DNA from: Steroidobacteraceae bacterium
Lineage (GTDB): Bacteria > Pseudomonadota > Gammaproteobacteria > Steroidobacterales > Steroidobacteraceae
Direction of reading: 5' to 3'
Assembly (NCBI GenBank): GCA_019634915.1
Contig: JAHCAN010000029.1
Coordinates: 1-36,844, forward strand
Length of the DNA stretch: 36,844 nucleotides
The translations under genes and the position numbers were made by a program. The notes beneath the pieces are model-generated. The model did no database searches and was not told where the DNA came from. It worked only from the letters and a program-made list of their open reading frames with translations. Positions 26,388-36,844 of this stretch are shown here, in pieces; the first letter of the stretch is position 1, and every line of letters begins with the position of its first letter.

Positions 26388-28325
26388 ATGCTGACGCTAC
26401 GCGACGTTCGTTTGCGCCGCGGCCCCCGTATCCTGTTCGAGCAGGCTTCGGTCGGCGTGTTCCGCGGCGACAAGGTTGGCATCGTCGGCAGGAACGGCTC
26501 CGGAAAATCGAGCCTTCTCGCACTGATCCGCGGCGAACTCGCGCCGGACCTCGGCGACTACGACGCACCGACAGACCTCTGCATCGCGGTCGTCGAGCAG
26601 TCGGTGCCCGACTCCGCGCAGAGCGTGATCGAGTACGTGCGCGAGGGTGACGCCGAGCTGATCCGCATCGAGCAGGCGATCGCCGCCGCGCACGCGGCCG
26701 GCGACGGCCACCGCGAGGCGCAGCGGCACGCCGACTACGACGCCGCGGGCGGCTACGGCGCGCGCAGCCGCGCGGCGGCGCTCGCGACCGGGCTCGGCTT
26801 CGACACCGCGGAGCTCGAGCGACCGCTGCACGAATTCTCCGGCGGGCTGCGCATGCGCGCAGCGCTCGCGCGCGCGCTGATGCGCCGTTCCGACGTGCTG
26901 CTGCTCGACGAACCGACCAACCACCTCGACCTCGACGCCGTGCTGTGGCTCGAGGGCTGGCTGCGCGCGTACCGCGGCACGCTGCTCGTGGTCTCGCACG
27001 ATCGAGAATTCCTCGACGGCATCGTCTCGCGCACCCTGCACATCGAGAACGGCCGCCTGACCGCCTACAGCGGCAACTACTCGGCGTTCGAGCGCCAGTG
27101 GGCCGCCGCACGCGAGCGCAACGCCGCGCTCGCCGAGAGCCAGCGGCGCGAGATCGCGCACGTCGAGAGCTTCGTCGAACGCTTCCGCGCCAAGGCGAGC
27201 AAGGCGCGCCAGGTGCAGAGCCGCATCAAGTGGCTCACCCGGCTGCCCGCGATCATCGAGGCGCAGGGCGAGGAATCCTTCGCGTGGCAGTTCCCCGAGC
27301 CGACGAAACTGCCGCGCCCGCTGGTCGCGCTCGACGCGATCAGCAGCGGCTACGGCAGTCGTGTCGTGTTCGCCGGCGCGAGCCTGTCGATCTCGCCCGG
27401 CGATCGCATCGGCGTGCTCGGCAGGAACGGCGCGGGCAAGTCGACGCTGATGCGCACCGTGGCCGGCAGCCTGCCGCCGCTCGCCGGCGAGCGCGTCGCC
27501 GCACCCGATCTCGAGGTCGGTTTCTTTGCCCAACTCGAGGTCGAGCAGCTCGATGCATCGAGCTGCTCGATCGAGGCGCTCGGCCGGGGCGGTGGCCCGC
27601 GGCTCGCCGGCTGGACCGTGCAGCAGAAGCGCGATCATCTCGGCCGATTCGGTTTCCGTGGCGAGCGCGTCTTCGAGCCCGTGCGCAATTTCTCGGGCGG
27701 CGAGCGGGCACGGCTGACGCTCGCGATCATGGTCGCGCGGCGGCCGAACCTGCTGCTGCTCGACGAGCCCACCAATCATCTCGATTTCGAGATGCGCAGC
27801 GCACTGCTGCTCGCGCTGCAGGACTACGCTGGCGCCGTGCTGATCGTCTCCCACGACCGCTCGCTGCTGCGTGGCGCCTGCGACCAATTCATGGTCGTCG
27901 GCGGCGGCGCCGTGCGGCCCTTCGACGGGGATCTCGAGGACTACGCCGCGTGGCTCGCGAAGGGCGCGCCGGAGCCGAGCGCGGCGACGGGAGACTCGCA
28001 TCCGACAGCGACCGAGGAGACGGTGCGACCGCTCGCGCGCGCGCCTAGGCAATCGACCGCGCAGCCAGCCGTAAACCGGCGCGATGCCCGGCGCCGCGAG
28101 GCCGCCGCCCGCAACCGCCTGTCACCGCTGCGTGCCGAGCTGCGCGCGATCGAAGCCGAGCTCGCGACGCTCACCGCGAAGCGCGGCGAACTCGAACGCG
28201 CGCTCGCCGATCCCGCGAACTTCGAACTCGCCGCCGAGTTCGGCCAGCTCACGGCGCACACCTCGGCGCTCGAGGACCGCTGGCTCGCGCTCAGCGAGGA
28301 AATCGATGCCGCGCAGCGCGCGTAA
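26388..28325 (+). CDS. ABC-F family ATPase (YheS-like)
   Basis: A 645-residue soluble protein with two ABC ATPase domains and no membrane part, so a ribosome-associated ABC-F factor rather than a transporter. First domain: Walker A GRNGSGKSS (34-42), signature FSGGLRMR, Walker B LLLDEPTNHLDLD. The linker (about 235-300) is Arg/Lys-rich. Second domain: Walker A GRNGAGKST (near 345), signature FSGGERARL, LLLDEPTNHLDFE. A C-terminal charged coiled coil (about 565-640) follows a variable stretch. Length and layout resemble YheS. It starts 16 bases after the GGDEF-EAL gene and overlaps the phospholipase gene by 20 bases. Confidence 0.93.
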   Translation: MLTLRDVRLRRGPRILFEQASVGVFRGDKVGIVGRNGSGKSSLLALIRGELAPDLGDYDAPTDLCIAVVEQSVPDSAQSVIEYVREGDAELIRIEQAIAAAHAAGDGHREAQRHADYDAAGGYGARSRAAALATGLGFDTAELERPLHEFSGGLRMRAALARALMRRSDVLLLDEPTNHLDLDAVLWLEGWLRAYRGTLLVVSHDREFLDGIVSRTLHIENGRLTAYSGNYSAFERQWAAARERNAALAESQRREIAHVESFVERFRAKASKARQVQSRIKWLTRLPAIIEAQGEESFAWQFPEPTKLPRPLVALDAISSGYGSRVVFAGASLSISPGDRIGVLGRNGAGKSTLMRTVAGSLPPLAGERVAAPDLEVGFFAQLEVEQLDASSCSIEALGRGGGPRLAGWTVQQKRDHLGRFGFRGERVFEPVRNFSGGERARLTLAIMVARRPNLLLLDEPTNHLDFEMRSALLLALQDYAGAVLIVSHDRSLLRGACDQFMVVGGGAVRPFDGDLEDYAAWLAKGAPEPSAATGDSHPTATEETVRPLARAPRQSTAQPAVNRRDARRREAAARNRLSPLRAELRAIEAELATLTAKRGELERALADPANFELAAEFGQLTAHTSALEDRWLALSEEIDAAQRA

Positions 28326-29817
28326 GCGGGTCCTGCGCTGGATCGGCGGCGCACTGCTCGGCGCATGGCTCGGCGTCATCGCCTGGCAGACGCTCAAACC
28401 ACTGCCGCCCGGCGTCGTCGTCGAGAGCGGCTGGACCGCGCTGCACGACGGCGACGCGCAGTTCCTGCGCGACATCACCGCCGCCGACGCCTACGGCCAT
28501 CCGCTCGTCGACCAGCAGATCTTCGACGCCGCGTTCGCACTGATCGCCGAGGCGCAGCACTTCATCGTGCTCGACATGTTCCTGTTCAACGCGCATCGCG
28601 GCGCCGGCGCAGCCGCGCCGGTGCATCGCGCGCTGTCGAGCGAACTGACCGCCGCACTGCTCGAGCGGCGCAGCACGAGCCCGCAGCTGCGCATCCTCTT
28701 TGTGACCGACCCGATCAACGACATCTACGGCGCGATGCCCTCACCCGAGCTCACGGCGCTGCGCGCGGCGGGCGTCGAAGTCGTCGAAACCGACCTCGAC
28801 CGGCTGCGCGATTCCAACCCGCTCTATTCCGCGTTCTGGCGCCTCGCGATTGCATGGTGGGCGCACGGCGCGCCCGGCGACTGGCCGAACCCGTTCGATT
28901 CGGGCGCGCACGGCGTATCGTTCGGCACCTGGGCGCGGCTCGTGAACTTCAAGGCGAATCACCGCAAGGTGCTGATCGTCGACCGCGACGACGGCACGCT
29001 CGCCGGCCTCGTCACATCGGCCAATCCGCACGACGCCAGCAGCCTGCACTCGAACGTCGGGTTGCGCATCCAGGGTGAAGCGCTCGCGCCGCTGCTGGAG
29101 AGCGAGCTTGCGATCGCGCGCTTCTCCGGCTGGGTGGGCCCACCGCTACCGCTGCCGTTGTCGCAGGCGGAGGGCCACGCCGACGCGGCGGCCACGACCG
29201 GGGATCCGCGGGCCAGCGCAGGCCGCATCCGCATCTACACCGAAGAAGGCATCGCCGATGCCGTCGTCGCTCGCCTCCAAGCCTGCGCAGCCGGCGACGC
29301 CATCGACATCGCGATGTTCTATCTCTCGGACCGCCCCGTGCTGCGCGCACTGCGCGACGCGGCGGCCCGTGGTGCGTCCGTGCGCGTACTGCTCGACCCG
29401 AACAAGGACGCCTTCGGCCGCCAGAAATCGGGTATCCCGAACCGCCCGGTCGCGACCGAACTCGTCAGCGCGACCGACGGCGCGATCCGCGTGCGCTGGT
29501 ACCGCACCCACGGCGAGCAGTTCCACGTCAAGCTGCTCGCGATCCGTGGCCGCGACAGCTTCTGGGCGACGCTCGGCTCGGCGAACTTTACGCGCCGGAA
29601 CATCCGCGACTACAACCTCGAGGCGAACGTGGCGGTCGAAACGCCGCGCGACTCGCCGCTCGAGCAGGCGATCGAGGAATGGTTCGACGGGTTGTGGAGC
29701 AACCGCGCACCTGCGGGTGTGGAATACACGGCTGAGTACGGTGCGTATGCCGATCCCGGGCAGCTCAATTACTGGGGGTATCGGGTGATGGAGGCTACCG
29801 GGTTGTCGACGTTCTGA
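28306..29817 (+). CDS. Membrane-anchored phospholipase D-like protein
   Basis: A 503-residue protein from ATG at 28306, which lies in the last 20 bases of the ABC-F gene. An N-terminal positively charged stretch and one membrane helix (about 10-28, GGALLGAWLGVIAW) place the rest outside the cytoplasm. Two PLD half-sites: NHRKVLIVD is a full HxKxxxxD (H219, K221, D226) followed by TSANPHD, and FHVKLLAIR has H407 and K409 but Arg at the position of the Asp, followed by GSANFTRRN. Related proteins are cardiolipin synthases and outer-leaflet phospholipases. A complete active site still needs only the two HxK pairs, so activity is plausible. Confidence 0.88.
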   Translation: MPRSARKRVLRWIGGALLGAWLGVIAWQTLKPLPPGVVVESGWTALHDGDAQFLRDITAADAYGHPLVDQQIFDAAFALIAEAQHFIVLDMFLFNAHRGAGAAAPVHRALSSELTAALLERRSTSPQLRILFVTDPINDIYGAMPSPELTALRAAGVEVVETDLDRLRDSNPLYSAFWRLAIAWWAHGAPGDWPNPFDSGAHGVSFGTWARLVNFKANHRKVLIVDRDDGTLAGLVTSANPHDASSLHSNVGLRIQGEALAPLLESELAIARFSGWVGPPLPLPLSQAEGHADAAATTGDPRASAGRIRIYTEEGIADAVVARLQACAAGDAIDIAMFYLSDRPVLRALRDAAARGASVRVLLDPNKDAFGRQKSGIPNRPVATELVSATDGAIRVRWYRTHGEQFHVKLLAIRGRDSFWATLGSANFTRRNIRDYNLEANVAVETPRDSPLEQAIEEWFDGLWSNRAPAGVEYTAEYGAYADPGQLNYWGYRVMEATGLSTF

Positions 29818-29983: not shown

Positions 29984-31066
29984 CTAGTGTTGCGTTCCGC
30001 CGATAACTTTACACAGTCGCTCGATCTTGGCGAGGATCGATTCCGCGGTGGCAGTCCACACGAACGGACGTGCGGTGAGGTTGTAGTGCTCGGTGTAGCG
30101 TTTGATGCGCCCGACAAGATCCGGCACGCTCTGGAAGGAGCCGCGGCGGATGGCCTGCTGGGTGATCAGGCCGAACCAGCGCTCGACCTGATTGAGCCAG
30201 GACGCGTAGGTCGGTGTGTAATGCAGGTGATATCGCGGACGTCGTGCCAACCAGGCACGCACCTTGGGGTGCTTGTGCGTGGCGTAGTTGTCGCAGATCA
30301 GGTGCACGTCGAGGTCGGTGGGCACGTTCTGGTCGATGTGCTTGAGGAAGGCGAGGAACTCCTGGTGCCGATGCCGAGGCTTGCACTGCGCGATGACTTC
30401 GCCATTGGCGACATCGAGCGCGGCAAACAGCGTGGTCGTGCCGTGACGCTTGTAATCGTGCGTGATGCCCTCGACGTAGCCGAGCCCCATCGGCAGCACC
30501 GGCTGCGTGCGTTCGAGTGCCTGGCACTGGCTTTTCTCATCGACGCACAGCACCAAGGCGTTCTCGGGCGGCGACAGATACAACCCGACGATGTCGCGCA
30601 CCTTCTCGACAAAGAACGGGTCGTTCGACAACTTGAAGCTCTTCGACCGATGCGGCTGCAAGCCAAAGAGGCTGATGTAGCGATGCACCGAGGTGGGCGA
30701 CAGTTCCGTCGCGGCCGCCAGCGAGCGCACACTCCAGTGTGTGCGTCCTTCGGGCTTGCCGTTGAGCGCAGTGCTGACCAGCTCGGCGACCCGCTCGTCA
30801 TCGATGCTGCGTGGGCGCCCGGGGCGCAGTTCCGTGTGCAGCCCGGCGAGGCCCGCCTCGCGCCAGCGCCGGCACCACAAGTACACCGTCGGTCGGCTGA
30901 TCCGATGCTGGCGCGCCAGTTCACTGCTGCCGACGCCGTCGGCCGAACCGAGCACGATTTGCACGCGCCGCACCAGACCGTGCGGCATCGAGCGCGAGCG
31001 CGCAATCGATTCAAGTTGCTGGCGCTCTTCGCGCGTCAGGATCACTGCGCTGTTCGATCGAGCCAT
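29984..31066 (-). CDS. IS630-family transposase
   Basis: A 360-residue cut-and-paste DDE transposase. The N-terminal helix-turn-helix region (about 10-130, including RISRPTVYLWCRRWREAGLAGL) binds the ends. The catalytic core has D176 (LVLCVDEKSQ), D259 (HLICDNYATHKH) and E295 (WLNQVERWF), the DDE set of the family. The coding frame has no stop inside the element: the last codon is the final CAC of the IS, and the stop TAG is made of the duplicated target TA plus a flanking G. Confidence 0.95.
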   Translation of the reverse strand: MARSNSAVILTREERQQLESIARSRSMPHGLVRRVQIVLGSADGVGSSELARQHRISRPTVYLWCRRWREAGLAGLHTELRPGRPRSIDDERVAELVSTALNGKPEGRTHWSVRSLAAATELSPTSVHRYISLFGLQPHRSKSFKLSNDPFFVEKVRDIVGLYLSPPENALVLCVDEKSQCQALERTQPVLPMGLGYVEGITHDYKRHGTTTLFAALDVANGEVIAQCKPRHRHQEFLAFLKHIDQNVPTDLDVHLICDNYATHKHPKVRAWLARRPRYHLHYTPTYASWLNQVERWFGLITQQAIRRGSFQSVPDLVGRIKRYTEHYNLTARPFVWTATAESILAKIERLCKVIGGTQH

Positions 31067-31141
31067 GGCCGAGAACTCCGTTGCCCAAGGATAAAGCTTG
31101 GACAGCGCCCAGCGCGTAAAGTTACTTACAGAACGCTACAC
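29987..31141 (-). mobile_element. IS630-family insertion sequence, apparently intact
   Basis: A 1155-bp element bounded by imperfect 26-bp inverted repeats (29987-30012 and 31116-31141, 20 of 26 positions alike, both ends reading GTGT inward). It is flanked by TA on each side (29985-29986 and 31142-31143), the target duplication expected for IS630. It carries one full-length transposase gene. The intact ends and frame suggest recent insertion. It separates chromosomal phoshopholipase-side DNA from a truncated NYN gene and the nuclease island. Confidence 0.9.
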
Positions 31142-31155
31142 TAGCGGCCATTTTT

Positions 31156-31237: not shown

Positions 31238-31825
31238 CTAATGCCGCTTCGCCGCGGAACTCATCAGACTGAGGATCGCCTCGTAGACTTGGTCAAACTG
31301 CTTCTGCGTCTTGGCATCGAGGCTGACCAGCGAACTGCGGAGCGACCGCAATTCCTGGGCAAGCTCCGTGTGGGTATGCAGCAATTCACGCATCTTTGCG
31401 AATGCCCTGACCACATAGACACTCATTTGCACCGCACGGGGACTGCTCAGCACGGTCGCCATCATAATGGCCCCATGTTCGGTGAAACCGATCGGCGGCT
31501 TGCGCCTTCCGCCCCAACTTGATGTTGCATTCTGCAACATCAAGTTGCGCAGATCAGCCAATGGTATCTCGAAGGCAAAATCCGCCGGGAACCGCGCGCG
31601 ATTGCGGCGGAACTGTTGATTCAGGCGCGCGGTCGTGACTCCGTAGATGGCTGCCAGATCGACATCCAGCATCACGCGTTGGCCATGCCTTTCGAAGATG
31701 CGGCTGGCGATCTCGAGTGGTGACTGATCAACGACCTTGCCCACTTCACCATCATCGTGCGTGACCCGACATGAAGGCGACGCGCATTTCCACCCGATAT
31801 GCCCAGATATGGGCTGCACCGACAT
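31238..31825 (-). CDS. ORF6N-domain DNA-binding protein
   Basis: A 195-residue protein, or 168 if translation starts at an in-frame GTG at 31744, which better matches the usual family start. The ORF6N domain (from RHGQRVMLDVDLAAIYGV) continues through LNQQFRRNRARFPADFAFEI, GGRRKPPIGFTEHGAIMMATVL and SVYVVRAFAKMRELL; a C-terminal coiled coil follows. ORF6N/KilA-N-type domains are common in phage and mobile-element regulators. It lies downstream of the DUF262 gene on the same strand (18 or 99 bases apart), so it is probably co-transcribed and could be a regulator of the locus. Confidence 0.82.
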   Translation of the reverse strand: MSVQPISGHIGWKCASPSCRVTHDDGEVGKVVDQSPLEIASRIFERHGQRVMLDVDLAAIYGVTTARLNQQFRRNRARFPADFAFEIPLADLRNLMLQNATSSWGGRRKPPIGFTEHGAIMMATVLSSPRAVQMSVYVVRAFAKMRELLHTHTELAQELRSLRSSLVSLDAKTQKQFDQVYEAILSLMSSAAKRH

Positions 31826-31843: not shown

Positions 31844-33994
31844 TCAATCCTCATCGTCGGGATCTTCATCATCATCCTCGCCCCCGTCCTCGTCCAGCGA
31901 GTCCAGATACTCCCGGCGCACGGCGGCGAGACTCTTGCGCGGCGAGACTTGCACGAGAAAGAACCACCAACCATTCATCGGATGCCCGACAAGGTGCGCG
32001 GCTGCCAGCGATGGGCTGTCGAAGATCTGATTCTCTACTTCGACCCTGCCATCGGGCAGGACGGTGCCAGTGCGACCGGAAAACTGCTTGCGCCGTGGAA
32101 TCAGCACTGTTCCAGGCTGAAGCGCATTCGCGGCGATGAGATCCGCAAGTTTCGGCCGCCTGCGCCTCATTGGCGCACGCTCCGTGGCAAAGCCCGACTT
32201 GTGACCAGCCGGAACCGGCCAGATGCGAAGGATCGTGGAAATGATGTACTCCGTCCGCTCGGCGATCTGTGTCTCGCTCCACGAAGGCTCACCGCGTTTC
32301 AGTACATCGCGATTGAGCAGCAGAACATCGTTACCTTCCAGACCGCTGCGCTTTCCGCCTGGTCCCGCCCACGGCCCGTTGGAAACACGGGAGTTCAGCC
32401 GGCCGGTCAGCAGCGTGAGATTCCCCAGTGTGTGAATGAGCTTGTCCCGCTCTTCTTCCGTGTGCCCGTCCGGCATCAGCGGCCAGCGAGATTGCCACTT
32501 CCGGGGCATCACATGCTCGATGGCCAAAGTCGATCTGGCGACGCGCTCGCCGCCCATTGCCACCTGACCCGGCTGCCAACCGCGCATGCGATCCTCGACG
32601 GCTTCCAGCAACATCCGCAACCGGCCGCGGCCAATGCGGCGATACGCCTGTAGCAGAGTCAGCTCGCCGCGCAGTTCGGCATCATCCGGCCAGTATCGAT
32701 TGGCGCCGCTCTGGCCGGCGAAGAACTTCTCGATCTCATCACCTGCGGAGTTCCGGCCCGTGCGCTGTATCAGCGCGATCAGCTCTGCCACGACCTGGCT
32801 GTAGGACTTCGTCGTGGCGCGAACCAGCATTCGACGCACCATCCAGCTCTCGACCACATCGAGTGCCTTGGCAATTTGTGACTCTGGGATCGGCGCTTCC
32901 TGAGGATCCAGCAGGCACAGCACCAATGGCTTGATGACTTCACTTTCCAGCACACTGGTTCGATACCCGAATAATCCCAGCCGTTCGATATGGCCTGTAC
33001 GAACACTCGCCGCTTCGATGAAGCTGCGGTACACATTGGACGCCTTGCTCAGGTGCTGGATCAGCGCCGTCATCGGCTGCCCGGACTCATGGACCGAATA
33101 GCGCTTGAAGCGATCGAAGACCTCCCGCGCCACAACCTCTTCACCAGTACGAGCCACCAACCAGTGATTGAGGAAGAGCGAGGAGCGCGGCGTGCGTACG
33201 CGGCCAACGCTGAGTTCGGCCTCCCAGAAGGCAGTTTCGAACTCCTTCCAGTACTTCTCGTAGAGCGATTCGACATCCGCGCCCTCTTCCATCAGGCGCT
33301 GGAAGATGAAATTCTTGATGAGGTCTGCGGCCGTGAGTTGCGCGCCGCGCGCGTTTAGCGTTTCGAAGATTTCCTGGGCGTTCTCATCGACGGTGAGATC
33401 GATGACCACCAGTTGCAGCAATTCGCGGGCGGCGGTTTCGATCACGGCTGCGCGCTGCTGTATGGCATCCGGACCCTTCTCCTGCAGCCACTGGGCGGCG
33501 GACTCGCTGAAATAGCGGTGAGCCTCCTGCATACGCTCGCCCGGGAACGCCAGCGTGCTGTAGTCGATGGGCGGGGTGGCGCTCATCACGGCATTAAAGG
33601 CAGGCCGGTCACGGTTCGTGGGCCACACCTTGAAGCGGTCTTCAGGCTGGGTGCAGAACGCTTCCGCATTCTCGACGAGTGGCTGGATACGCTGCGCCGG
33701 CCCCGCGGCTCCGGCCGCGAGCAATTGCGTGTGCAGCGCATCGAGCAGGAGTTGCAGGGTTGTCAGGCGTTGCTGTCCATCGATGATCGTTCGCTCCTGC
33801 ATCCGGCCGACCGGATTCTGGACCTGCTGCAACACCACGGCGCCGAGGAAGTGAGGTGGGTGCTTGTCGGCGGGGCGCGCGAGAACGCGCTCGACCACGC
33901 GGATGAGATCGTTCCAGAGAGGTTCCCATTGGGTTTCCTCATTCCAGACGTAGGGGCGCTGGAACAGGGGGACGATCAGCCGTTGGGGCTGCAT
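31844..33994 (-). CDS. DUF262-HNH(DUF1524)-RAMA protein, putative modification-dependent restriction enzyme
   Basis: A 716-residue protein from the first in-frame ATG. DUF262 domain: VPLFQRPYVWNEETQWEPLW at the very start and IIDGQQRLTTL (D72-R76), a nucleotide-binding/ParB-like motif. HNH/DUF1524 nuclease: IEHVMPRKW (E493, H494), HTLGNLTLL (H521, N525) and RLNSRVSN. The C-terminal part (about 613-682), with LQPGTVLIP, DGRVEV, FDSPSLAAAHLVG and MNGWWFF, fits a RAMA domain, a predicted reader of modified bases. It ends in an acidic tail. This is a GmrSD-like, type IV restriction architecture. The family normally has 10-30 more residues before VPLFQRP: an upstream ATG at 34031 is one base out of frame because of a run of seven C. 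Confidence 0.85.
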   Translation of the reverse strand: MQPQRLIVPLFQRPYVWNEETQWEPLWNDLIRVVERVLARPADKHPPHFLGAVVLQQVQNPVGRMQERTIIDGQQRLTTLQLLLDALHTQLLAAGAAGPAQRIQPLVENAEAFCTQPEDRFKVWPTNRDRPAFNAVMSATPPIDYSTLAFPGERMQEAHRYFSESAAQWLQEKGPDAIQQRAAVIETAARELLQLVVIDLTVDENAQEIFETLNARGAQLTAADLIKNFIFQRLMEEGADVESLYEKYWKEFETAFWEAELSVGRVRTPRSSLFLNHWLVARTGEEVVAREVFDRFKRYSVHESGQPMTALIQHLSKASNVYRSFIEAASVRTGHIERLGLFGYRTSVLESEVIKPLVLCLLDPQEAPIPESQIAKALDVVESWMVRRMLVRATTKSYSQVVAELIALIQRTGRNSAGDEIEKFFAGQSGANRYWPDDAELRGELTLLQAYRRIGRGRLRMLLEAVEDRMRGWQPGQVAMGGERVARSTLAIEHVMPRKWQSRWPLMPDGHTEEERDKLIHTLGNLTLLTGRLNSRVSNGPWAGPGGKRSGLEGNDVLLLNRDVLKRGEPSWSETQIAERTEYIISTILRIWPVPAGHKSGFATERAPMRRRRPKLADLIAANALQPGTVLIPRRKQFSGRTGTVLPDGRVEVENQIFDSPSLAAAHLVGHPMNGWWFFLVQVSPRKSLAAVRREYLDSLDEDGGEDDDEDPDDED

Positions 33995-34005
33995 GAATAC
34001 GAGTT

Positions 34006-34012
34006 GGGGGGG
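34006..34012 (-). other. C7 tract that puts the DUF262 gene's likely start out of frame
   Basis: On the coding strand ATG (34031) GAA ACC CAG GTC AGA is followed by A-CCCCCCC-AA. With six C the frame would read METQVRTPQLVFMQPQRL and continue into the DUF262 protein; with seven it stops after about 30 codons. It could be a phase-variable tract, a disabling mutation or a sequencing error. Confidence 0.6.
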
Positions 34013-34078
34013 TTCTGACCTGGGTTTCCATCAATCGCTCGGGTTCGGAGGCTCGGCCTCTTCTTGTCCATTCCTGCG

Positions 34079-34122
34079 GGGGATTGTCGAGCAATCCCCA
34101 CCCTTGCACTGTGAAACGTTTC
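34079..34122. promoter_or_regulatory. Two dyads in the DUF262/NERD-helicase spacer
   Basis: GGGGATTG-TCGAG-CAATCCCC is a perfect eight-base stem at 34079-34099. Fourteen bases on, GAAACGTTTC (34113-34122) is a perfect palindrome. Both lie in the divergent spacer of about 160-200 bases and could be operators shared by the two genes. No clear promoter hexamers were found. Confidence 0.45.
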
Positions 34123-34190
34123 GCCAACCAGATCAACGCCTTGTGACCTGAGCGGCAGCCTTTCTCCCGCCCCTCGCCCACGATCGCCCC

Positions 34191-35990
34191 ATGGCGACCT
34201 TCCTCTCCAGCCCCCTCTCGGCTGGCGCCCGTGCCTCCAACGGCGAACGCCGCCTGGCCACGCGCTTCGCCGAGCTCCTGGAAGACGACTATCTCTGCTG
34301 GTACGACGTCCCCGTCGGCCCGCAGTACCAGCACCCGGACTTCGTGCTGCTCCATCCCGCCCGCGGCCTGCTCGTGCTGGAGGTGAAGGACTGGAGCCTC
34401 GAGTCCATCGTCGATGCGAATCCCGAATCCTTCACGGTGGCGTTCGGCACCGGCCACAAGGTGCAGTCGAACCCCCTCGAGCAGGCGCGGCAGTACGCGC
34501 ACGCCATCGTTCGCGTGCTCGAGGCCGATCCGCTGCTCGCAAATCCGGTCGGCGATGACTATGCAGGCAAGCTGAACTTTCCCTGGGCGTACGGCGTCGT
34601 GCTCACGGGCATCACGCGGCGGCAGTTCGAGCCATCTGAGCTCTCGTCGATCCTTCGCTCGCACCTGGTGCTCTGCAAGGACGAGATGACCGAGTCCGCC
34701 GAAGCCGAGTCCTTCCAGAAACGACTGTGGGACATGTTCAACGTGCGCTTCGCCAGCCGCCTCACGCTGCCGCAGGTGGATCGCATCCGCGCGCGCCTCT
34801 TTCCAGAACTGCGCGTCAGCCAGCGCAGCCTGCTTGATGATTCCGTCGTGCCGGACCTGCGCGTGATGGACCTGCAGCAGGAGGCGATCGCTCGCAGCCT
34901 TGGCGAGGGCCATCGCGTCATCCACGGTGTGGCAGGTTCGGGCAAGACGCTGATCCTGGCTTACCGCGCGCAGTTCCTCGCGCGCACGCTGGCGAAGCCC
35001 ATCCTCGTGCTCGTCTTCAACAAGGCGCTGGCCGTTTGGCTCGCGCACCAGATGGCGGAGCGTGGGCTTCGCGACAGCGTGCATATCCGCACCTTCCACG
35101 CTTGGTGCAAGGCGCAGCTGAAGCTCTACCACGTTCCGGAACCCGCGGGCACGGGCCAGCAGTTCTACGATGCGATGGTGGGCGCCGTCATCCGCGCGGT
35201 GGACCGAGGACAGATCCCGCGTGCGCAATACGGCGCCGTGCTCATCGACGAAGGGCACGACTTCAATCCCGACTGGTTGCGACTCGCGGTGCAGATGCTC
35301 GATCCGGAGAGCAACTCGCTGTTGCTGCTCTATGACGATGCGCAGTCGATCTATGCAGCCAATCGGCCGAAATCTTTTTCGTTCCGCAGCGTCGGCATCT
35401 CGGCGGTGGGGCGCACGAAGATCCTGCGGCGCAACTACCGCAATACTGACGAGATACTCGCCTGCGCCAGCGCCTTCGCACGCGACCTGCTTTCGCCGAA
35501 GGATGCGGATGAGGACGGCGTACCGCTGGTGTCACCGGAACCCGGCGGGCGCAAAGGTGCGCGGCCGCGCTTCTATGACGCGCGATCCGTGAGGGAGGAG
35601 GCCGCCTGCATCACGCAGGAGCTGCAACAACTACACGATCGTGGCGTGCCCTGGAAAGAGATGGGCGTGGTGTACACGGCGCCGTTCGTGGCGGAGGAGC
35701 TGTGCAGGGAGTTCACGGAGGCCAGACTGCCCTTCGAATGGCTGAAGGAGCAGTTCGATCCCGCGCGAGACTGCGTACGGGTGATGACGGCGCAAAGCAG
35801 CAAGGGGTTGCAGTACCAGGTGGTCGCCGTGGCGGGAGCGGGATTCATGCCGTATCGGGACGAAACCGAAGAGGCCCGGCTGCTCTATGTGGCGATGACC
35901 AGGGCGACGGACGAGCTGGTGATCACCAGCAGCAAGCGGAGCACGTTCAGTCAGAGGCTGAAGGAATTGTGTGATCTGATGGCGGCGTAG
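34191..35990 (+). CDS. NERD nuclease - UvrD-like helicase
   Basis: A 599-residue fusion. The N-terminal NERD domain (about 15-150) has the PD-(D/E)xK-like set E19, D50 (HPDFVLL) and E64-V-K66 (LLVLEVKDW). A superfamily-1 helicase follows: Walker A GVAGSGKT (246-253), DE box LIDEGHDF (353-354), LYDDAQSIY, LRRNYRNTDEIL, MTAQSSKGLQYQVV and LLYVAMTRATDELVIT. All helicase motifs look complete though the protein is short for UvrD (no large 1B/2B insertions). It is divergent from the DUF262-RAMA gene, and a role in attacking invading DNA is inferred from domains and neighbours. The start ATG at 34191 has no clear Shine-Dalgarno. Confidence 0.9.
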   Translation: MATFLSSPLSAGARASNGERRLATRFAELLEDDYLCWYDVPVGPQYQHPDFVLLHPARGLLVLEVKDWSLESIVDANPESFTVAFGTGHKVQSNPLEQARQYAHAIVRVLEADPLLANPVGDDYAGKLNFPWAYGVVLTGITRRQFEPSELSSILRSHLVLCKDEMTESAEAESFQKRLWDMFNVRFASRLTLPQVDRIRARLFPELRVSQRSLLDDSVVPDLRVMDLQQEAIARSLGEGHRVIHGVAGSGKTLILAYRAQFLARTLAKPILVLVFNKALAVWLAHQMAERGLRDSVHIRTFHAWCKAQLKLYHVPEPAGTGQQFYDAMVGAVIRAVDRGQIPRAQYGAVLIDEGHDFNPDWLRLAVQMLDPESNSLLLLYDDAQSIYAANRPKSFSFRSVGISAVGRTKILRRNYRNTDEILACASAFARDLLSPKDADEDGVPLVSPEPGGRKGARPRFYDARSVREEAACITQELQQLHDRGVPWKEMGVVYTAPFVAEELCREFTEARLPFEWLKEQFDPARDCVRVMTAQSSKGLQYQVVAVAGAGFMPYRDETEEARLLYVAMTRATDELVITSSKRSTFSQRLKELCDLMAA

Positions 35991-36162: not shown

Positions 36163-36844
36163 CTAATGTACCTCCCGCCGCTGCCGGGTCCCCTTGCTCG
36201 CCAGCGAGAACCGCGGCTCGACCGCGGCGAGCTCCCCGGTCACGAGCTGCGCGACATACCGCCCGACCGCCGGGCCGTGCTTGAAGCCGTGCCCTGAGCC
36301 GCCACCGACGAGCCACACGTTCTCGAACTGCGGATGGCGGTCGATGAGAAAGTCGCCGTTCTCGCTGTTCTCGTACTGGCACACGCGCGTCTCGACGAGC
36401 GGCTGCTGCGTGAGCGCGGGGAAGCGCCGCGCGAGATAGCGGCGCACGTCGGCCTCGCCTTCGCGGCTCGCGCGCCGCTCGCCGGTGTCCGGGTCGAACG
36501 CCGCGCCGTGCGTGTCGTTCGCGATCTTGAAGCCGCGGTTCTCGAGGTCGGGCATGCCGTAGTACATGTCGCCCGCCGAGAATTCGGCCCAGCCCGGGAG
36601 ATGTCGCGCGCCGTAGCGGTCGTCGCCCGCGGGCGGGGCGAAGAAGAACACTTCCTGGCGCGTCGGGAAAATGCGCGTCGCGAGGAGATCCGGAAACAGC
36701 TTCGGCAGCCACGGGCCGCAGGCGAACACGAGCTGCCGGGCAGTGACCCGCTCGCCGCTGCTCGTGCGCACGCTCGCGAGCACCTCGCCCGCGGCTGCGG
36801 CCTCGGCGCGCGACCCGGCGGCGGGCGCGGCTAACGCTCCCGGC
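36163..36844 (-). CDS. FAD-dependent amine/amino-acid oxidoreductase (DAO family), partial
   Basis: The C-terminal 226 residues or so of a flavoprotein; the frame is open to the window edge, so the N-terminal FAD-binding GxGxxG part is missing. Visible DAO features: VTARQLVFACGPWLPKLFP, the aromatic segment TRQEVFFFAPP, VCQYENSENGDFLIDRHPQ and GGGSGHGFKHGPAVGRYVA near the end. The Cys in VCQYENS lies where monomeric sarcosine oxidase and N-methyltryptophan oxidase attach FAD covalently. The substrate cannot be told. It looks like normal chromosomal sequence in composition and may mark the right border of the accessory region. Confidence 0.88.
   Translation of the reverse strand, partial: PGALAAPAAGSRAEAAAAGEVLASVRTSSGERVTARQLVFACGPWLPKLFPDLLATRIFPTRQEVFFFAPPAGDDRYGARHLPGWAEFSAGDMYYGMPDLENRGFKIANDTHGAAFDPDTGERRASREGEADVRRYLARRFPALTQQPLVETRVCQYENSENGDFLIDRHPQFENVWLVGGGSGHGFKHGPAVGRYVAQLVTGELAAVEPRFSLASKGTRQRREVH

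Follow-up and report, generated by a model that had tools for sequence, protein, structure and literature searches.

A RAMA-bearing GmrSD-type nuclease and a NERD-UvrD gene as probable variable cargo of a chromosomal slot in a Steroidobacteraceae bacterium

Two large genes, one coding for a nuclease with DUF262, HNH and RAMA domains and the other for a NERD nuclease fused to a superfamily 1 (SF1) helicase, stand back to back on contig JAHCAN010000029.1 of a Steroidobacteraceae bacterium (assembly GCA_019634915.1), and their arrangement raises the question of whether they work together. We analysed a 36,844-nt stretch of this contig, called the window below. The initial annotation had taken the two genes for a candidate undescribed defence locus with one promoter region, in which RAMA would recognise a modified base, DUF262 would couple nucleotide binding to HNH cleavage and the nuclease-helicase would degrade the cut DNA. 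We consider it probable (about 0.82) that the locus is instead variable cargo in a chromosomal slot, consisting of an independently acquired GmrSD/BrxU-type nuclease with a RAMA domain and a free-standing NERD-UvrD gene. The features in question are:

31844..33994, minus strand: GmrSD-type nuclease gene, 716 aa as the listed open reading frame (ORF), from Pfam, motifs, relatives and alignment
Within the protein encoded at 31844..33994: DUF262 at residues 6-231, DUF1524/HNH at 435-585, RAMA at 607-700, and an acidic tail (Pfam)
33995..34031, minus strand: probable true 5' end of the nuclease gene (METQVRTP), in another frame, from the alignment of relatives
34191..35990, plus strand: NERD nuclease and UvrD-like SF1 helicase gene, 599 aa, from Pfam, PADLOC and motifs

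The domains first read from the sequence by eye were recovered by database searches in both proteins. In the 716-aa protein, Pfam identified GmrSD_N/DUF262 (6.6e-35), GmrSD_C/DUF1524, which is the HNH domain (4.2e-21), and, at the C-terminus where it had been expected, RAMA (1.9e-14, residues 607-700), with 53.9 bits against a curated cut-off of 35.2; DUF4357 remained below its own cut-off (20.6 against 38.4 bits). The motifs IDGQQR (at residue 71), EHVMP (at 493) and GNLTLL were found, and the protein has the hallmarks of the GmrSD family, a DUF262 domain with (I/V)DGQQR and a DUF1524 HNH domain with EHxxP. It matched the PADLOC models Orf5, HEC-06 and mREase_IV, and its sequence matches in the PDB were DUF262, SspE and DUF1524 chains, plus two others at chance level. 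The 599-aa protein matched NERD (6.4e-13), UvrD-helicase (1e-10) and UvrD_C (1e-17) in Pfam, and contains the motifs GERR, PDF, VLEVK, GVAGSGKT, VLIDE, DDAQSIY and VAMTR, which are those of a PD-(D/E)XK-like NERD nuclease and an SF1 helicase; both proteins have catalytic and nucleotide-binding motifs. The PADLOC model C3a187 'NERD+UvrD' matched it nearly over its full length (6.8e-160, residues 1-593), and its PDB matches were UvrD, PcrA, Rep, GajB and similar helicase chains.

Both family motifs of the nuclease are stated in the accessible text of PMC10952713 and PMC12707154. As far as the available sections of PMC4619093 (Machnicka et al. 2015) go, the single-chain form of GmrSD likewise carries DUF262 with IDGQQR and DUF1524 with EHxxP on one chain, homologues are frequent where defence and mobility genes abound, and the additional domains include DUF4268, DUF4357 and DNA_binding_1. 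The genes and domains of the locus are real; a GmrSD protein with an extra C-terminal DUF4357 has been on record since 2015. The window protein differs from the forms listed there in that its extra domain passes the cut-off for RAMA and not that for DUF4357. A Lactococcus relative (L130) has DUF4357 above the cut-off at its C-terminus. Our literature searches on RAMA with DUF262, GmrSD, BREX (bacteriophage exclusion), HNH or modification-dependent restriction returned, in the portions of the sources available, no account of a RAMA-GmrSD fusion; an author note in the accessible part of PMC12707154 mentions work on RAMA-HNH endonuclease fusions. BrxU, a GmrSD homologue in a BREX island, has the same two core domains as the window nuclease (PMC10952713 and PMC12707154, available text). 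Relatives of the window gene (L099-L101) also adjoin BREX genes. The window copy differs from BrxU in its additional RAMA domain and in having no BREX gene among its adjacent genes, the only ones scanned for BREX (ORF6N, IS630 and NERD-UvrD); to our knowledge, BrxU is without a RAMA domain.

Judged by family, the DUF262-HNH-RAMA architecture is most naturally read as a nuclease for modified DNA, and this part of the earlier interpretation stands. The protein would be a single-chain modification-dependent (type IV) restriction enzyme of the GmrSD/BrxU type, in which DUF262 is predicted to bind and hydrolyse nucleoside triphosphate, hydrolysis would license the DUF1524 HNH domain to cut modified DNA, and the C-terminal RAMA domain would be an added reader of modified DNA. 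The NERD-UvrD protein alone is predicted to translocate along and cut nucleic acid. Searches of the literature on NERD and UvrD, in which the model name C3a187 was not a search term, found no named NERD-UvrD defence system in the source text available. The helicase resembles the UvrD-like GajB of Gabija (PADLOC, 2.1e-18) but differs in its N-terminal NERD domain; Gabija was rejected, as no gene for the OLD-type nuclease GajA lies beside it (for the truncated right-border gene this was assessed by eye).

The pairing was then examined among relatives. The initial annotation had itself proposed that homologues almost never found together would speak against it, and this is the pattern that we obtained. 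The survey comprised the best 80 of 108 confirmed NERD-UvrD relatives from a scan of genome contigs, with 46-57 % identity and, by their titles, mostly from Proteobacteria with a few from other phyla; about 60 of the 80 loci had 2.2 kb or more of flank on each side, the end of the match being approximated for loci with full flanks. When the GmrSD protein was compared with every ORF of 60 aa or more at these loci (phmmer, E <= 1e-3), only the window's own copy was found. Similarly, a ten-sequence GmrSD profile gave 19 hits in 127 loci, all of them to loci of the window itself or of GmrSD genes, and matched 0 of the 80 NERD-UvrD loci. The genomes behind 50 of these 80 loci were searched as a whole, and GmrSD was detected in one (E <= 1e-40), as a protein of 35 % identity matched over residues 4-593 only, ending before RAMA, and lying on a contig of 69,039 bases while NERD-UvrD lay on another of 78,604 bases. 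The background rate of GmrSD was 3/200 genomes at E <= 1e-40 and 3/369 and 4/398 at E <= 1e-60, with the window's own genome included each time.

The reverse search gave the same picture. NERD-UvrD was absent from the GmrSD loci L091-L097 and L099-L101, and none of seven GmrSD-bearing genomes, three of them with RAMA, contained it at E <= 1e-20; this search had no internal positive control, though the same query matched the window's own genome and one other (G010) in another genome search. It was also missing from the listed genes of five plasmid GmrSD regions, whose gene tables may be incomplete. On plasmid L132 (4184-9118), an SF2 helicase gene without NERD is divergent from a GmrSD gene whose product has no RAMA match, and a type I restriction-modification (RM) operon lies downstream.

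A real two-gene defence system, in which RAMA-GmrSD detects and nicks or cuts modified phage DNA and NERD-UvrD loads on the break and degrades the DNA, with shared divergent transcription, would account for the divergent adjacency of the two genes, whose listed starts are 196 bp apart, and would fit the motifs present in both proteins, the PADLOC models matched by both and the divergent SF2 helicase of L132. In the 196-bp gap, however, we found no sigma-70-like site (0; shuffled sequences, 0.1), so that the 'one shared promoter region' survives as an arrangement only, and RAMA-GmrSD keeps other company, as described below. Because the homologues almost never co-occur (0/80 loci; 1/50 genomes, with a distant GmrSD on a separate contig; 0/7 in reverse), neither a two-gene system nor the degradation of HNH-cut DNA by the nuclease-helicase is supported. 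The paired system thus appears largely refuted by the genome survey, and we regard it as highly improbable.

The neighbourhoods of NERD-UvrD did not reveal a recurrent partner. No single-linkage cluster of neighbouring genes extended to more than 7 of 81 loci, and the positions were scattered, when a cluster of nine ORFs, antisense to the NERD-UvrD gene where examined, was omitted. Among 140 immediate neighbours at 73 loci (a count without seven loci lacking a single-ORF match and without neighbours longer than 1400 aa), the most frequent Pfam or PADLOC family occurred three times or fewer, and the defence-like families were Mrr_cat (3), PDC-S02 (3), Fic (2) and HipA (2). On four plasmids the gene was found beside porin and transporter genes, beside an N-6 methylase gene, beside type III-B CRISPR genes and inside a type VI secretion cluster. 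There was no match in phage records at E <= 1e-20, and of 72 pattern matches in viral contigs none was confirmed. The best reading of these sequence surveys is that NERD-UvrD is probably a free-standing gene, widespread without a fixed partner. The NERD-UvrD relative with CRISPR genes of type III-B upstream of it is L126, on a plasmid of Nostoc; a CRISPR accessory role in the window was rejected, as no CRISPR gene is adjacent.

The company of RAMA-GmrSD is of a different kind. RAMA was confirmed by Pfam in L091, L092, L093 and L099; L099 and L100 are identical over the stretch compared and L101 differs, and we counted these three as one, giving four independent contexts in all. In L099-L101 the gene and brxA point away from each other, and after brxA come brxB, brxC, two genes resembling HEC-02 and the beginning of pglX (gene families tested for L099 alone). 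Downstream of RAMA-GmrSD, L093 carries the methyltransferase and specificity genes of a type I system, and in L092 a C-terminal nuclease fragment is followed by genes for a type I methyltransferase and a restriction subunit. In three of the four contexts RAMA-GmrSD thus adjoins BREX or type I RM genes; in L091 a HipA-like gene stands beside it, and by eye no BREX or type I system was seen in 4.1 kb. Two further observations concern these loci: L099 and L101, with their BREX-type operon and divergent RAMA-GmrSD, are contigs of the viral collection IMG/VR, and the fragment in L092 (9070-10089, HNH and RAMA) is an ORF without the N-terminal half.

Adenine is the base methylated by BREX and type I enzymes. 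Residence beside such systems, together with two N6_Mtase matches in the window's own genome (contigs C4 and C15), argues against cleavage of any DNA with N6-methyladenine. RAMA-GmrSD might be a standing companion of adenine-methylating systems, found apart from them here, that covers phages whose modifications evade them, as BrxU does. The BREX genes at L099-L101, the type I genes at L092 and L093, the two N6_Mtase matches and a relative in L128 that lies next to DUF1156/PLD anti-phage genes and matches DUF4357 weakly, below the cut-off, are all consistent with this, as is the precedent of BrxU in the available text of PMC10952713. On the other hand, the genes for GmrSD proteins with neither a RAMA nor a DUF4357 match have similar neighbours, an anti-phage cluster in L131 and a type I RM operon in L132, so that defence company is not special to RAMA; in addition, no methylase system was found among the adjacent genes in the window, the contexts are few and defence genes cluster anyway. 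We therefore hold this companionship to be rather unlikely. There is also a slim chance that RAMA-GmrSD reads host adenine methylation as a 'self' mark that restrains the nuclease and not as a foreign trigger. If true, this would account for why the gene can stand next to adenine-methylating BREX and type I systems and not be lethal to its host, and the supposed type IV enzyme would become an effector against unmarked DNA.

Whether the nuclease is made in full is a further question. In relatives the protein begins with M[E/D]TQVRTPQ..FM[Q/H]PQRL, the first codon being TTG in L099. The codons for METQVRTP are present in the window (start 34031, minus strand), in a frame different from that of the listed nuclease ORF, and the frame shifts at a stretch of seven G (34006-34012); at this place the frame is open in L091, L093, L099 and L101. 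Since its first codons lie in the other frame, the assembled copy may fail to yield the complete protein. It is quite possible, if somewhat short of an even chance, that the copy is broken or phase-variable across this run, as suggested by the open frame of the relatives, by METQVRTP being out of frame and by the run being the only one of at least seven G or C in the 36.8-kb window. Against this, a run of seven G is short for slippage, about 2.4 G or C runs of at least seven would be expected in the window by a first-order model, an error in the draft assembly is equally likely, and an internal ATG at 33994 retains all three Pfam matches, with GmrSD_N from profile position 12. The gene may thus be inactive, phase-variable or mis-assembled. 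Were the nuclease restrained by a self mark, part of the population could keep it off by means of a switch at the G run at its start.

The surroundings of the two genes point to a variable slot. The remaining features of the window are:

28345..29817, plus strand: PLD-type gene, left border, named by eye, with the start picked inside ORF 28084-29817
29984..31144, minus strand: IS630-family insertion sequence with 29-nt end repeats (inverted repeat I2, 79 %)
29984-31066, minus strand: IS630 transposase (NCBIfam 1.4e-81)
31238..31825, minus strand: ORF6N-domain gene (Pfam 2.7e-27), which follows the nuclease gene at a distance of 18 bp, counted from the listed start
36163..36783, minus strand: FAD-dependent oxidoreductase gene, right border, truncated by the contig end, named by eye

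The insertion sequence and the ORF6N gene reported alongside the pair were thus both confirmed. The ORF6N gene matches the PADLOC candidate PDC-S05 (3.7e-43), and its protein was found only in the window's own locus among the 127 loci (phmmer, E <= 1e-3). A 20-nt repeat at 34085 and 36145 (85 %) was rejected as a pair of att sites, being weak and one of many similar repeats.

In the genus, the PLD-type gene is present in 7/7 genomes and the FAD-oxidase-type gene in 6/7, the window's own genome included; the latter was not found in G066. The two genes are convergent, and the interval between them ranges from about 13 bp between the stop codons in G090 through 0.6 kb in G051, 4 kb in G079 and 6.3 kb in the window to 17 kb in G014; in G034 both genes are at contig ends. 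The slot of G014 holds Druantia-like genes: DruE (E = 0), a cytosine methyltransferase with matches to the models MTase_II and DruM, and a weakly matching DruF; in G066 AbiEii and AbiEi follow the PLD gene. No PADLOC match at E <= 0.001 was obtained for the large ORF of G079, the small ORF of G051 and two further ORFs of G014. Neither RAMA-GmrSD nor NERD-UvrD was detected in the six other genus genomes (thresholds E <= 1e-40 and E <= 1e-60, respectively), and the GC content is 0.58-0.66 inside the window insert against 0.68-0.73 outside. The variable-slot loci of the genus are L116, L117, L118, L119 and L123. The window contig ends inside its own FAD-oxidase-type copy (36163-36844); a second copy, with 93 % protein identity and different neighbours, lies on contig C23 of the same genome (L120) and may reflect a duplication or a strain mixture in the assembly.

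The reading of the locus as variable cargo is built on the domains and motifs, the lack of co-occurrence, the company of RAMA-GmrSD and the variable slot; the biochemistry, the modified base read, the separate acquisition and any phage protection by either gene are inferred. Several points weigh against it. The separate arrival of the two genes is itself deduced, and a divergent arrangement with a short gap is the expected look of a co-regulated pair; the GmrSD of plasmid L132 also has a divergent helicase, though SF2 and without NERD. The scan relied on exact short peptides and thus covered close relatives, with distant NERD-UvrD relatives outside the survey, and some flanks were short (47/80 loci had 7.8 kb or more on both sides). 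The pairing may be rare or young and restricted to this lineage, and the contexts of RAMA-GmrSD number only four, of which L091 has less than 200 bp on one side.

The genome survey removes a candidate system, as the striking adjacency of the two genes is left unsupported. The three of four contexts beside adenine-methylating systems argue against RAMA as a simple trigger for any N6-methyladenine, and RAMA-GmrSD beside methylating systems offers a testable case for what the RAMA reader recognises. The PLD/FAD slot, in turn, has the look of a hotspot for defence genes in this genus.

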